The translations under genes and the position numbers were made by a program. Under the pieces are notes generated by a model. The model was not told the origin of the DNA, ran no database searches, and worked only from the letters and a program-made list of their open reading frames with translations. Below are positions 699 to 10,246 of a stretch of 42,759 nucleotides of DNA, one piece after another. The stretch is from Salinisphaeraceae bacterium. GTDB taxonomy: Bacteria > Pseudomonadota > Gammaproteobacteria > Nevskiales > Salinisphaeraceae. The DNA is taken from NCBI GenBank assembly GCA_002683405.1, contig NYTH01000012.1:1-42759 (forward strand). Reading direction: 5' to 3'. Position 1 is the stretch's first letter; every line of letters starts with the position of its first letter.

Positions 699-2543
699 CT
701 AGAACGCCTCGGAGGGTCCCGCTTCCTGGGCGCCGCCGGGCTGCGCGTCGTTGCGGCTGGGGATATGGTCGCCCGTAATCATCTCGCCGTAGCTCATGCC
801 CGGTCCCACCATCGGGTACACGCCGGCATCGGGGTCGATGATGACTTCCAGAAACGCCGGCCCCGGGTACTCCACGAACGCCTTGATGACGGCGGGCAGA
901 TCGTCCTTGTTGTCCAGACGCTGCGCGAACTCGAAGCCGTCCGCCTGCGCGGCCTTCACGAAGTCCTTTTTGTGCAGCGACTTGTCGGACGCGGACAGGC
1001 GGCCCTTGAAAAAGAGCTTCTGCCACTGCTTGACCATGCCGTCGCCAAAGTTGTTCAGCACGACCACTTTGACCGGCAGATCGTAGGTGGTGGCCGTCTC
1101 CAGTTCGCCAATATTCATGCGGATGGACGCATCGCCATCGATGTCTATGACCATGCGGTCGCGGCAGGCAAACTGCGCGCCGATGGCGGCCGGCAGGCCG
1201 AAGCCCATGGTGCCCATCGAGCCGGAGGTCAGCCAGAGCCGCGGATGCTTGAAATCGAAGTACTGGGCGGCCCACATCTGGTGCTGGCCCACCCCCGTGG
1301 CGATAATCGCTTCGCCTGCCGTGATGCGGTTGATTTCCTCGATGACGGCATAGGGCTGGATCAGCGGCGACTCGCGATCATAGTTCATCGCATAGTCGCG
1401 CTTGAGCGCCTGGATCTGGCCGTGCCACTCGGAAAAATCCTTGTGGAAGCCCTCGGCCCGGCCGTATTCCAGCAGCCGCCGCAGGCTGTCGGCCAGCAGC
1501 CCGACGTGGTGCCAGTCGACAGCCTTCACCTTGTTGATCTCGGAGGCGTCGACGTCAAAGTGCGCAATGGCCCTGGCGTTGGGCGCGAAGGCCGCAGGGA
1601 CGCCGGCCACGCGATCGTCAAAGCGTGACCCCATGGCGATCAGCAGGTCGCAGTCCTCCACGGCGTAGTTGGCAAAGGCCGTGCCGTGCATGCCGAGCAT
1701 GTGCAGCGACAGGGCGTCCGTGGTGTCGAAGGCGCCGATGCCCATCAGCGTGGTGACCACCGGTATGCCGAAGGCCTGCGCCAGTTGCCGCATGTCGTGT
1801 GCGGCATCGGCATTGATCACGCCCCCGCCAGCATAGATAAGCGGACGCTCGGCACTGGCCAGCAGCTCGAAAAAGCGGCGGCATTCATCCTCGTCAATGC
1901 GGTTGTCGAGCAGGCTGTGCATGCGCTGGCGGTAGCCGGGTACGGGCAGCAGACCGGCGCCGGCGAACTCGCCCTGCCAGTTCTGTACATCCTTGGGCAC
2001 ATCGATGACCACCGGCCCCGGCCGGCCGGAGCGGGCGATTTCGAAGGCCGTGCGCACGGTGGCCTCCAGTCTGGCGGGGTCGGTGACCAGAAAGACGTGC
2101 TTGGCCGCGGCGCTCATGATGTTGGACACCGGCGCCTCCTGAAAGGCGTCGGTGCCGATGGCGGCCGTGGCCACCTGGCCGCAGATCAGCACCATGGGCA
2201 CCGAGTCGGCCATGCTGTCGCGCACCGGCGTGACGCAGTTCGTCGCGCCCGGACCTGACGTCACCATGGCCACGCCCACCTTGCCCGAGGCCCGGGCATA
2301 GCCGGCGGCCATGAAGCCTGCGCCCTGCTCATTGGCCGGCACGATCAGCGGCATGCGGTCGTGATGTTCGGCGTTGAAGCGGAAAATGGCGTCGTAGGTG
2401 GGCAGGATGGCGCCACCGGAGTAGCCGAATACGGTATCTACACCTTCATCGGCCAGAACCTGGACAATGATATCCGCGCCGCTCATCGGGCGGCCCGCGA
2501 GCGGATGCTTGGGGGAGTCGTGGCTTCTTGCCTGCGCCATCAT
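699..2543 (-). CDS. ilvB: Acetolactate synthase, large (catalytic) subunit
   Basis: This thiamine-diphosphate enzyme condenses two pyruvates to acetolactate, or pyruvate with 2-oxobutyrate, the first common step of Val/Leu/Ile synthesis. The 614-aa product has the N-terminal PYR domain with the catalytic Glu in PANEQ (about residue 72), VTSGPGATN (95-102), a DAFQEAPV loop (132-139), a central FAD-type domain, and the C-terminal ThDP/Mg motif around residues 469-498 (GDASIRMN ... NN) followed by MVKQWQ. The first ATG has AGAGGG 9 bases upstream; a second ATG follows directly. The gene is divergent from ilvH instead of preceding it, which is unusual. The N-terminal half (FGYSGGAILPTYDAI, ANEQGAGFMAAGYARA) differs from the E. 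coli IlvI pattern, which suggests another AHAS subfamily. Confidence 0.95.
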   Translation of the reverse strand: MMAQARSHDSPKHPLAGRPMSGADIIVQVLADEGVDTVFGYSGGAILPTYDAIFRFNAEHHDRMPLIVPANEQGAGFMAAGYARASGKVGVAMVTSGPGATNCVTPVRDSMADSVPMVLICGQVATAAIGTDAFQEAPVSNIMSAAAKHVFLVTDPARLEATVRTAFEIARSGRPGPVVIDVPKDVQNWQGEFAGAGLLPVPGYRQRMHSLLDNRIDEDECRRFFELLASAERPLIYAGGGVINADAAHDMRQLAQAFGIPVVTTLMGIGAFDTTDALSLHMLGMHGTAFANYAVEDCDLLIAMGSRFDDRVAGVPAAFAPNARAIAHFDVDASEINKVKAVDWHHVGLLADSLRRLLEYGRAEGFHKDFSEWHGQIQALKRDYAMNYDRESPLIQPYAVIEEINRITAGEAIIATGVGQHQMWAAQYFDFKHPRLWLTSGSMGTMGFGLPAAIGAQFACRDRMVIDIDGDASIRMNIGELETATTYDLPVKVVVLNNFGDGMVKQWQKLFFKGRLSASDKSLHKKDFVKAAQADGFEFAQRLDNKDDLPAVIKAFVEYPGPAFLEVIIDPDAGVYPMVGPGMSYGEMITGDHIPSRNDAQPGGAQEAGPSEAF

Positions 2544-2742: not shown

Positions 2743-2793
2743 GCGCGCTACTTTTTTCCCGGGGCCATGGGCGCCGGCACGCTGAATCGGCCG

Positions 2794-4385
<1,592 letters not shown>

Positions 4386-4480: not shown

Positions 4481-5155
4481 ATGCGCAGAGCAACCTTTCT
4501 GCACATTGCCCGCGAGGGCTGGCCGCTTACGCTGTGCGTGCTGGTTCTGGCTGCGGTCAGCCATTTCTACGTGCATCACTTCGCGGCGCTGCTGCTGCTC
4601 TTGGTCGCGAGTCTGCTGCTGCTGTTCTTTTACGAGCCAAGCCGGACCGTCCCGTCCGAGCCGCTGGCCGTGCTGGCGCCGGTGGACGGCGTGATCACGC
4701 ACTGTGAAACCGGCCCCGACCCATGGCTGGATCGCGAGTCACTGCATGTCCGCGTCAAGCTGGGCGTGCTGGGGGCCTACATGGTGCGTTCGCCGGTGGA
4801 GGGCACCGTGCTCGAGGTGCCGGCTGATGCCCGGAACAGAAACCCCGGTATCGCCTCGTGGATCAAGACCGACGAGCAGGATGACGTGGTCCTGGCGGTC
4901 TCTCGCGGCAGCCTGCTTGGCGCGTCGCCGTTGACGGTACGCTATGGCGAGCGCGTGGGGCAGGGGCGCCGCAACGGCGTGCGCCGTCTGGCGCGGGCGG
5001 TGGATATCTACATGCCGGCCAACTCGCGGCTGGAAGTCGAGCTCGGCCAGAATGTCTGCGCCGGCCGCCACGTGCTGGCCACGCTGGTGCACAAGCAGAA
5101 CGGCCAGCAAAGCCACAATGGCGAGTCGAACGGCAACGGCGGCAAGCCGGCCTGA
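4481..5155 (+). CDS. Phosphatidylserine decarboxylase-related protein, probably inactive
   Basis: The 224-aa product matches short (type II) Psd proteins along its length: IAREGWP near the N-terminus, a hydrophobic segment (about 17-50), LAPVDGVI (65-72), RSPVEG (103-108) and AVDIYMP (173-179). Psd is a pyruvoyl enzyme made by self-cleavage at a Gly-Ser pair using an Asp-His-Ser triad. Here Asp69 is kept, but the His of the family's N/D-V-H-x-x-R-x-P motif aligns with Tyr100, and the Gly-Ser pair of RFGSRVDVYLP aligns with Ala171-Arg172. Both losses should prevent cleavage and decarboxylation. The C-terminus (about 205-224) is an extra Asn/Gly/Gln tail. It sits where active psd is found in the ilvC-psd-pssA-leuA order. 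The role is unknown; a membrane-bound pseudoenzyme that binds phosphatidylserine or PssA is possible. Confidence 0.75.
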   Translation: MRRATFLHIAREGWPLTLCVLVLAAVSHFYVHHFAALLLLLVASLLLLFFYEPSRTVPSEPLAVLAPVDGVITHCETGPDPWLDRESLHVRVKLGVLGAYMVRSPVEGTVLEVPADARNRNPGIASWIKTDEQDDVVLAVSRGSLLGASPLTVRYGERVGQGRRNGVRRLARAVDIYMPANSRLEVELGQNVCAGRHVLATLVHKQNGQQSHNGESNGNGGKPA

Positions 5156-5214: not shown

Positions 5215-6006
5215 ATGCAGAACGGCAGCGAATCCAAAGAAGAACCGGAAGACCGGCGCCAGCGGCGCGGCATCTACCTTTTGCCGAACCTGTTCACGAC
5301 GGGCACGTTGTTTGCCGGTTTCTACGCCATGATCGCCTCCACGCAGGGCCTCTACGGCACGGCCTGCGTGGCCATCTTCGCAGCCATGGTGACTGACATG
5401 CTGGACGGGCGAATTGCCCGCCTGACGAATACCCAGTCCGATTTCGGCATTCAGTACGACAGCCTGGCGGATCTGGTGGCCTTCGGGCTTGCCGCCGCGC
5501 TCACGGCCTACATGTACAGCCTTCAGAGCCTGGGCGATCTGAGTTTCGTGGCGGGCAAGATCGGCTGGCTGGCCGCCTTTTTCTACACCGCCTGCGCCGC
5601 GCTGCGGCTGGCGCGCTTCAATATCCAGCGTGGCGGGCCGTCGGAAAGCAAGGTGTTCTTCGGCCTGCCCAGTCCGGCCGCCGCGGGTCTGATTGTCGGT
5701 TTCGTTTGGACCGGCACCGATTTCGGATTTGACGGGCACACGCTCGTGGTTCCGGTGCTGCTGCTGACCATCGCCGCCGGTTCGCTGATGGTGAGCAACA
5801 TCCGCTTCCACAGCTTCAAGGATCTGAACATTTCCGGCCGCGTCCCCTTCACCTATATCCTGATTCTCGTACTGGGCTTCGTGCTGATATCGGTGGACCC
5901 TCCGCGCGTGCTGTTCCTGGGCTTTCTGGCCTACGCGTTGTCCGGACCGGGTCTGGCCCTGTGGCGTTGGCGCCAGCGGCGCCGGGCCGCTAACCAGGCC
6001 GGCTGA
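5215..6006 (+). CDS. pssA: CDP-diacylglycerol--serine O-phosphatidyltransferase (membrane type)
   Basis: It makes phosphatidylserine from CDP-diacylglycerol and serine, the first committed step to phosphatidylethanolamine. The 263-aa protein has the CDP-alcohol phosphotransferase signature D-G-x2-A-R-x8-G-x3-D-x3-D, seen from DGRIAR through G-IQY-D-SLA-D (about residues 63-85), and several membrane segments. The N-terminal 20 residues are charged and the C-terminus ends in an Arg-rich stretch. This is the integral-membrane type II enzyme, not the soluble E. coli type. It follows the psd-like gene by 59 bases. No strong Shine-Dalgarno precedes the ATG. Confidence 0.93.
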   Translation: MQNGSESKEEPEDRRQRRGIYLLPNLFTTGTLFAGFYAMIASTQGLYGTACVAIFAAMVTDMLDGRIARLTNTQSDFGIQYDSLADLVAFGLAAALTAYMYSLQSLGDLSFVAGKIGWLAAFFYTACAALRLARFNIQRGGPSESKVFFGLPSPAAAGLIVGFVWTGTDFGFDGHTLVVPVLLLTIAAGSLMVSNIRFHSFKDLNISGRVPFTYILILVLGFVLISVDPPRVLFLGFLAYALSGPGLALWRWRQRRRAANQAG

Positions 6007-8956: not shown

Positions 8957-8999
8957 GGCGGCACTCGCGCTCGCCGGTCCGGCCGGTTAGGCTAGTGTG

Positions 9000-9782
9000 A
9001 TGGACCCCGCGAGTCGTACCTACTACCTGCAGCAGATTGGTCTGACGGCGTGGCGGCAACGCCACTTCGACAGGCCATCAAAACTGGCCGAACCGTCGCC
9101 ACCGGCTCGGCCCGACTCGACCGTTACGCCGGCGGTTCCGGAGCCGGAACGCGCCGCGGCCGACGTCTCCGGGCCGGAGCAATCGGCGGCTCGACCGATC
9201 GACACCGCAACCACGAGCCCGGTGGCGCAGATGGACTGGGCGGCGCTGGAAGCCTGGCTGGCGGAGCAGGATCATCGCGGCGCCAGCCGGCCCGTGTTTG
9301 GCGCGGGTGCGCGGGATGCGAGCCTGCTGGTCATTGGTGAGGCCCCCGGCGCCGAAGAGGACCGCAGGGGCGAGCCGTTCGTGGGTCGCGCCGGGCAACT
9401 TCTGGACCGCATGCTGGCGGCGATTAGCCACAGTCGCGCCGACAACACCTACATTGCCAACATCTGCAAGTTCCGGCCGCCGGGCAATCGCGATCCCAAG
9501 GCAGACGAGATTGCCGCTGACCGGCCGGTGCTCGAGCGCCAGATCGAGCTACTGCGTCCGCGCGCCATTCTCGCGCTGGGCCGCGTCGCGGCGCAGACGC
9601 TGCTAGACAGCCGTGAGCCGCTGGGCAAGTTGCGCGGGCGCTGGCTGCAATACCCGGGGACCGATATTCCGCTGCTCATTTCCTACCACCCGGCCTATCT
9701 GCTGCGCAGCCCGCAACAGAAGAGCCTGGCCTGGGACGATTTGCGCCAGATGCACCGGTATCTGAAGGCAGGACCGCCATGA
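9000..9782 (+). CDS. HolD-like N-terminus fused to Fe-S-less family 4 uracil-DNA glycosylase domain
   Basis: The 260-aa protein has three parts. Residues 6-23 read [18 protein letters not shown] and match from memory the N-terminus of E. coli DNA polymerase III psi (HolD: RRDWQLQQLGITQWSLRR), the segment that binds the clamp-loader collar; Trp18 matches psi Trp17. Residues about 24-78 are a Pro/Ala-rich linker. Residues about 80-258 are a UDG family 4-like domain with GEAPGAEED (113-121), [15 protein letters not shown] and HPAYLL (230-235). All four usual Fe-S cysteines are gone: no CxxC before the domain, KFRPP (Phe158) for KCRPP, and Asp174 where the last Cys should be. Only Cys156 remains. 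It overlaps rimI by ATGA; in E. coli holD also precedes rimI. A clamp-loader psi role is inferred. A GTG at 8997 would add one residue. Confidence 0.75.
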
Positions 9783-10246
9783 GCGCCAGTCCGGAAGCCG
9801 CCTTTCAGGTGCGTCGGCTGGTCACCGAGGATGTGCCTGCGGTCCTGGAGATCGAGCGGCAGTCCTACCAGTATCCCTGGAGCGAGGGCATTTTTCGCGA
9901 CTGCCTTCGGGTGGGCTATCGCTGCTTTGTGGCGACCGATCTCTACGGCCACGTGCGCGGCTATTCACTGCTCTCGGTGGCCGTGGGTGAGGCGCATATC
10001 CTGAACCTGTGTGTTCACCCGGATTATCGGCGTCTGAGCATTGCCCGCCTTTTGCTGGATCAGCTCGTGCGGCAGGCGGTCAGCGAGAATGCCGAATCGG
10101 TCATGCTGGAGGTCCGGCCGTCGAACAAGGGAGCGATCAGGCTCTACGAGGGCTATGGCTTCAAGCGTATCGGGCGGCGCAAGAATTACTATCCGGCCGC
10201 CAGCGGCCGGGAAGATGCGCTCCTGCTCGCCTACTTCCTGCACTGA
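9779..10246 (+). CDS. rimI: Ribosomal protein S18-alanine N-acetyltransferase
   Basis: This GNAT-fold enzyme transfers an acetyl group to the N-terminal Ala of S18. The 155-aa length is normal. The diagnostic C-terminal half is present: MLEVRPSNKGAIRLYEGYGF, then RRKNYYP and GREDALL. The acetyl-CoA pyrophosphate loop is unusual: the family's R/Q-x-x-G-x-G/A reads RRLSIA here (near residue 84), with Ser and Ala for the two small Gly positions, which is tolerable but uncommon. It overlaps the upstream HolD-like gene by 4 bases and the MFS gene starts 2 bases after its stop, so all three form an operon. Confidence 0.9.
   Translation: MSASPEAAFQVRRLVTEDVPAVLEIERQSYQYPWSEGIFRDCLRVGYRCFVATDLYGHVRGYSLLSVAVGEAHILNLCVHPDYRRLSIARLLLDQLVRQAVSENAESVMLEVRPSNKGAIRLYEGYGFKRIGRRKNYYPAASGREDALLLAYFLH

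Follow-up and report, generated by a model that had tools for sequence, protein, structure and literature searches.

The phosphatidylserine decarboxylase (Psd) of E. coli, a type I enzyme, self-cleaves and carries a pyruvoyl group. In PMC7952604 (in part), its self-cleavage residues are given as D90/D142-H144-S254; there, the S254A protein remains uncleaved, His144 mutants produce no phosphatidylethanolamine (PE), and slow cleavage persists in the H144A and G253A proenzymes. The same paper names Tyr137, Ser166 and the Val167 amide as the groups that hold the PE phosphate. That a pyruvoyl-dependent decarboxylase can have a dead paralogue turned partner is exemplified by the AdoMetDC prozyme of T. 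brucei (PMC5201418, in part), and the synthesis of phosphatidylserine (PS) has itself been described as regulated, the peripheral PssA of E. coli being controlled by anionic lipids (PMC8027125, in part). Closest to the gene presented here are the type II, or short, Psds (NF003680/NF003678). It shares with them the PF02666 domain, the Asp of the PVDG motif, an N-terminal hydrophobic stretch and the ilvC-psd-pssA position, but differs from them in lacking the catalytic His, the self-cleaving Gly-Ser and a segment that we refer to as the NER segment, and in scoring below the NF003680 cut-off.

The gene, denoted psd', lies at 4481..5155 (+) of the window (the whole stretch of 42,759 nt of Salinisphaeraceae DNA that was analysed) and encodes a protein of 224 aa, which its ORF, its Pfam match, an alignment and a tree identify as a presumptively dead homologue of type II Psd. 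The match to PF02666 (PS_Dcarbxylase) reaches 27.2 bits, above the cut-off of 22 (E 3.6e-6), but the best NCBIfam type II Psd model gives 106.2 bits, under the cut-off of 262 used as the criterion for an active enzyme. Across the four dead-type proteins scanned, NF003680 scores ranged between 93 and 187 bits, as compared with 321.6 and 325.5 bits for two canonical proteins of the same locus. Throughout, "dead" designates a protein that does not have both the His and the Gly-Ser at the aligned columns, and "canonical" one that keeps both.

Upstream of psd' is a conserved neighbour that we take to be ilvC (3369..4385, +; ORF, with the start codon chosen by us), and downstream is pssA (5215..6006, +), encoding a CDP-diacylglycerol--serine O-phosphatidyltransferase of the CDP-OH type (TIGR00473, 109.8 bits; cut-off 107). 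Positions 2767-4385 (+) belong to a row that runs small-subunit gene, ilvC, psd', pssA, leuA; the gene at 699-2543 (-), presumably that of the acetolactate synthase large subunit, is divergent from this row and does not lead it. Both ilvC and pssA are same-strand neighbours of psd' in 30/30 loci of the window's order, the window's included. Flanking by both genes on the same strand was found in 125/135 dead-type loci and 15/21 canonical loci, and both neighbours were present at 71 of the best 80 loci from named genomes (8 of the 80 canonical). Long open frames in two genomes, G397 and G299, had the appearance of an IlvC-psd' fusion, which was ruled out since the reading frame of the ilvC match is not that of the long open frame.

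Direct reading of psd' gives Asp69, Gly98, Tyr100 and Ala171-Arg172 at the positions that matter for catalysis. Asp69 (4685..4687, +) is the retained Asp of PVDG, equivalent to E. coli Asp90, and Tyr100 (4778..4780, +) stands where Psds conserve the catalytic His (E. coli His144; role in PMC7952604, in part), while Ala171-Arg172 (4991..4996, +) replaces the self-cleaving Gly-Ser. These are the residues that the earlier note had reported, and both their identity and their numbering are borne out by the direct reading and by a 30-row alignment. Gly98, which had gone unnoticed there, represents the loss of the equivalent of E. coli Asp142. The correspondences of Tyr100 with His144, Gly98 with Asp142 and Arg172 with Ser254 were drawn by us through the canonical alignment. 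Because cleavage persists, slowly, in the E. coli H144A and G253A proteins, it is the absence of the Ser that decides against cleavage, and that of the His that decides against decarboxylation.

Tyr fills the His column in 30/30 rows of this alignment, made up of the window protein and 29 relatives from its order, and no row (0/30) has Gly-Ser at the cleavage site. The substitutions are thus common to all of these relatives, which rules out both a sequencing error and a recent mutation. An intact Gly-Ser elsewhere in the protein, the finding against which the earlier note had set its reading, did not turn up: the sole Gly-Ser of psd' is formed by residues 143-144, away from the site, and Ser is present in 42 of the 204 dead-type rows with a letter there, a conservation so poor that we rejected this pair as a substitute cleavage site. 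Judged from these residues, psd' is almost certainly catalytically dead.

The dead type is not confined to the window's relatives. Within the order, 36/85 genomes carry a relative at E<=1e-3, 35 of the dead type and one canonical (G036), the latter clustering with Psds from outside the class; in the family to which the window belongs, psd' occurs in 16/17 genomes, the window's included, and the genome missing it is 85% complete. A class-level draw of 369 genomes yielded 123 with a relative at E<=1e-6, divided into 103 dead and 20 canonical. Among the 156 loci read from the order and class searches, 21 have both the His and the Gly-Ser and 135 do not, of which 12 have Gly-Ser without His and 2 His without Gly-Ser. 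The best 80 of at least 258 confirmed relatives in a scan of named genomes comprised 72 dead and 8 canonical proteins, with names including Thiohalobacter, Thiogranum, Ectothiorhodospiraceae, Acidiferrobacteraceae, Chromatiaceae and Woeseia. The 72 dead rows partly overlap the 135, so that the 207 dead rows counted below are not independent genomes; rows L034-L036 were dropped as repeats of other loci, and the dead rows L115, L151 and L161 are truncated by contig ends. A contig scan with the single window protein as query confirmed no relative. The dead Psd type is therefore conserved and class-wide rather than a local accident, a breadth that, together with the loss of the NER segment, goes beyond what the earlier note saw.

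In canonical proteins the NER segment, typically PG.F.NA..DKAS..NERN, has a length of exactly 32 residues in 47/47 rows of the tree alignment. In the window protein it is replaced by a shortened, motif-free stand-in of 21 residues (residues 109-129; 4805..4867, +), and across 97 dead-type rows the length varies between 14 and 46 residues (median 24). The motif itself occurs in 0/207 dead rows as compared with 25/29 canonical ones. Comparing its motifs with those of the E. coli sequence and of the type I Psds in the window's genome, we would place Ser166 and Val167 of the E. coli enzyme in this segment. The lost segment would then be the expected PS-phosphate binder, which weakens the simple idea that psd' is a PS sensor.

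New conserved positions accompany these losses. The His column over the 207 dead rows holds Tyr in 139 and Phe in 52 (191/207 together) and His in 2, and column 172 shows no fixed residue (Arg 60, Gly 57, Ala 40, Ser 27, and others); 22/207 rows have a Gly-Ser at the cleavage position. Alignment and column counts delineated two motifs: TDEQDD at residues 130-135 (4868..4885, +; family motif TDExDD) and GERVGQG at residues 156-162 (4946..4966, +). The pattern TDExD/E is found in 197/207 dead rows vs 10/29 canonical rows. The TDE motif is already present in four canonical Psds (L062, L073, L089 and L099) placed close to the root of the dead clade, and hence seems older than the loss of catalysis. 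When 117 thinned dead rows were compared with 16 thinned canonical rows, the residues gained in the dead type were Glu107 (frequency 0.96), Glu132 (0.97), Asp134 (0.89), Arg158 (1.0), Gly160 (0.98) and Gln161 (0.90). Cys165 is present in 175/207 dead-type rows and 0/29 canonical rows, and is associated with the ancestral Cys151 (Fisher p 1.3e-6 over 132 rows of <70% identity, with kinship uncorrected). In relatives the two cysteines could form a disulphide or a metal site; the window protein has neither, carrying Leu151 and Asn165 instead.

To place the dead type among the Psds, a quick maximum-likelihood tree (144 rows, no bootstrap) was built after identity thinning, which also preceded the column counts, and with the trait columns removed. 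Its canonical rows comprised 23 from the class and order searches and the named scan and 24 from a phylum search; L144 and L155 were excluded from the rooted tree owing to their long branches. A single branch (SH-aLRT 100), which is nested among the class's own canonical type II Psds, separates all dead rows (97/97), the window's row (L004) included, from the canonical ones. Over 34 pairs, the median dN/dS (Nei-Gojobori) was 0.136 for psd' (maximum 0.25) and 0.091 for pssA; these pairs remained from 39 after five with an undefined dS of psd' or pssA were dropped, several have dS >1, and one pair is in twice with identical values (L229/L230 and L129/L154), evidently because both collections include these genomes. 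Thus, psd' is under purifying selection, and the low dN/dS together with the new conserved motifs indicates that it is preserved for something other than the old reaction. The sequence accordingly upholds the proposal that psd' is a pseudoenzyme beside pssA, as the protein has been conserved despite the loss of the His, the Gly-Ser and the NER segment; its new job is probably a non-catalytic one.

The earlier note had raised the possibility of a second active Psd elsewhere in the genome, and this fits what we found. The window's genome encodes two type I-like Psds, at G000:C20:82917-83573 and G000:C3:40334-40972 (183 and 180 bits), and both retain the YHR His motif and Gly-Ser-Thr and are predicted to be active. 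Here "type I-like" denotes a PF02666 match of at least 165 bits, the catalytic residues having been read in the window's genome. In the class draw, a type I-like Psd was present in 97/103 genomes with the dead gene vs 0/20 with the canonical one. A Fisher value for this contrast overstates the independence of the genomes: given the single origin of the dead type, the contrast comes down to roughly one displacement followed by losses. Each of the 20 canonical genomes, one of them only 55% complete, has a single PF02666 match (117-161 bits), at the locus. Exceptions among the 103 are G273, G323, G170, G397 and G299, without any Psd, and G260, with fragments only. G397 and G299 (the L102/L103 pair) are the only two sampled genomes of their genus, and both have psd' and pssA and no recognised Psd; recognised Psds leave their PE synthesis unaccounted for, and assembly gaps may explain this. 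Counting psd', the relatives G071 and G080 each have four PF02666 matches, which together with the two type I-like Psds of the window's genome shows a family with many Psd paralogues.

The AlphaFold2 model of psd' (80-row alignment; mean pLDDT 91.1, pTM 0.84) consists of two N-terminal helices followed by a beta domain. The helices, at residues 13-30 and 33-49 (4517..4627, +), are predicted to form a membrane hairpin, which would be expected to anchor the domain on the cytoplasmic side. The best fold match of the domain was IIA-Glc (PDB 3our, 1f3g; Z 12.5 over 126 residues, 3.0 A), and LytM-type domains were also among the matches. E. coli Psd (PDB 7cnx, 6l06) matched psd' residues 50-170 with Z 7.5 over 115 beta-chain residues at 2.8 A; as a Z below 8 is weak evidence by itself, the kinship of psd' with Psd rests on sequence. 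Phmmer with the window protein against solved structures returned nothing at E<=10, and a profile reached Psd only at E 0.17. Psd structures in the PDB consist of chains that stop at the cleavage site, to the detriment of their scores, and we therefore do not read the higher rank of IIA-Glc as kinship. IIA-Glc is a regulatory protein that acts by contacts; for all the likeness in fold, this phosphocarrier shows no sign of a function in common with psd'. M23/LytM peptidases have a conserved set of zinc-binding His residues, and such a peptidase was rejected for psd' since no His in positions 1-204 except H204 is conserved in >60% of the 207 dead-type rows. H204 (169/205 rows) is the only His conserved to this extent; IIA-Glc has a phosphorylatable active-site His, and its likeness to psd' is one of fold.

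Tests of a link between psd' and PssA gave no direct sign of a contact. In a joint AlphaFold2 model of the two proteins (read-through translation, 37/90 rows paired) both halves were folded (mean pLDDT 89.7), and the PssA half matched the PS synthase 7pow with Z 23.4, but a pTM of 0.65 and a low-confidence linker give no confident arrangement of the two. Partial rate covariation with psd' over 51 genomes was 0.44 for PssA, 0.43 for IlvH and 0.28 for IlvC; with LeuA added (30 genomes) it was 0.42 for PssA, 0.34 for IlvH and 0.02 for LeuA. In neither set was PssA singled out as the partner of psd'. Moreover, ilvC is followed by pssA with no psd' between them in 7/9 psd'-less genomes of the order that we examined, indicating that PssA can work without psd'; in the remaining two, no ilvC match lies beside pssA in the piece covered.

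Among the best 80 named-genome loci, five (L219, L221, L234, L237 and L238; three of them from Woeseia or Woeseiaceae) have neither ilvC nor pssA near psd'. In L221 (Woeseia) and L237 (Woeseiaceae) psd' lies between what we take to be proS and a uracil-DNA glycosylase gene; in the window, a pair that is presumably UDG-rimI occupies positions 8997-10246. All five genomes with a relocated psd' have a type I-like Psd, yet in four the sole PssA is a distant one (33-38% identity) and the fifth has none at E<=1e-3. Hence psd' is not strictly tied to a PssA neighbour, which limits the idea that it is a PssA subunit.

With these constraints, the reading that we tentatively favour is that psd' is a pseudoenzyme derived from a type II Psd with an accessory or regulatory role at the PS step next to PssA; the suggestion in the earlier note of a regulator or scaffold of PS synthesis is plausible and is compatible with a second active Psd. 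The acquisition of a type I Psd would have freed the operon's own Psd from catalysis: the newcomer would have taken over decarboxylation and the old operon copy would have become a pseudoenzyme with a new role. The protein would remain anchored in the membrane as one uncleaved chain, carry no pyruvoyl group and work by binding, through the newly conserved Tyr/Phe100, Glu107, Asp131/Glu132/Asp134 and Arg158/Gln161, most likely as an accessory or regulatory subunit beside PssA that may hold, sense or pass on PS or set the output of PssA. More speculatively, this class-wide gammaproteobacterial pseudo-decarboxylase might be a non-catalytic subunit dedicated to gating the PE branch, at PssA or at the hand-over from PssA to Psd, with a single origin in the displacement of the operon's own enzyme by an acquired type I Psd. 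A prozyme-like role, in which psd' binds, activates or stabilises the type I Psd encoded elsewhere, seems unlikely to us, despite the co-occurrence of such a Psd in 97/103 psd' genomes, the precedent of the T. brucei AdoMetDC/prozyme pair (PMC5201418, in part) and the build of E. coli Psd as a dimer of heterodimers (PMC7952604, in part). The co-occurrence may reflect only the cell's need for some Psd, the operon neighbour is PssA and not a Psd, and G397 and G299 contain psd' and no recognised Psd. To our knowledge, E. coli Psd works without any such partner, which also speaks against this role. The prozyme, which we take to belong to another family and pathway, further differs from psd' in that its effect on a partner has been demonstrated, whereas that of psd' is one that we infer.

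Residues such as E132, R158 and Q161, charged or polar and near-invariant only in the dead clade, together with the gain of Cys165 in association with Cys151, would also suit a new enzyme or ligand binder, its pocket rebuilt around Tyr100, Glu107, Asp131/Glu132/Asp134 and Arg158/Gln161; the window protein, however, has neither cysteine, and we consider this distinctly improbable. We give an equally low probability to a membrane function unrelated to PS, with psd' kept in the operon by inertia: the presumed proS and uracil-DNA glycosylase neighbours in L221 and L237, and the distant or missing PssA of genomes with a relocated psd', speak for it, but the order ilvC-psd'-pssA in 125/135 dead-type loci speaks against it. 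A decaying leftover without function is very improbable, for although the absence of psd' from between ilvC and pssA in 7/9 psd'-less genomes examined shows that it can be lost, decay is contradicted by the dN/dS values and by the class-wide conservation of the new motifs. Least credible of all is that psd' is still a decarboxylase using another nucleophile. The Gly-Ser at 143-144, the 22/207 dead rows with a Gly-Ser at the usual place and the slow cleavage of E. coli H144A and G253A proenzymes (PMC7952604, in part) could be cited in its favour, but Ser144 is not conserved, and the rows with the usual Gly-Ser are by our sorting rule without the His, the residue whose E. coli mutants make no PE (PMC7952604, in part).

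Pseudoenzymes are already known as a kind, and the psd' clade would add one to the Psd family; in the titles and abstract openings of the open-licence PMC matches listed, we found no description of an inactive bacterial Psd family. Since psd' and many of its relatives score above the Pfam cut-off for Psd, they are easily annotated as PE-making, and pathway maps may therefore misassign PE synthesis. If the role we favour is true, psd' would show that bacteria, too, can turn a dead pyruvoyl-type decarboxylase into a partner protein, and a part in regulating PS synthesis, if confirmed, would be relevant to the balance between PE and anionic lipids in bacteria with an integral-membrane PssA.
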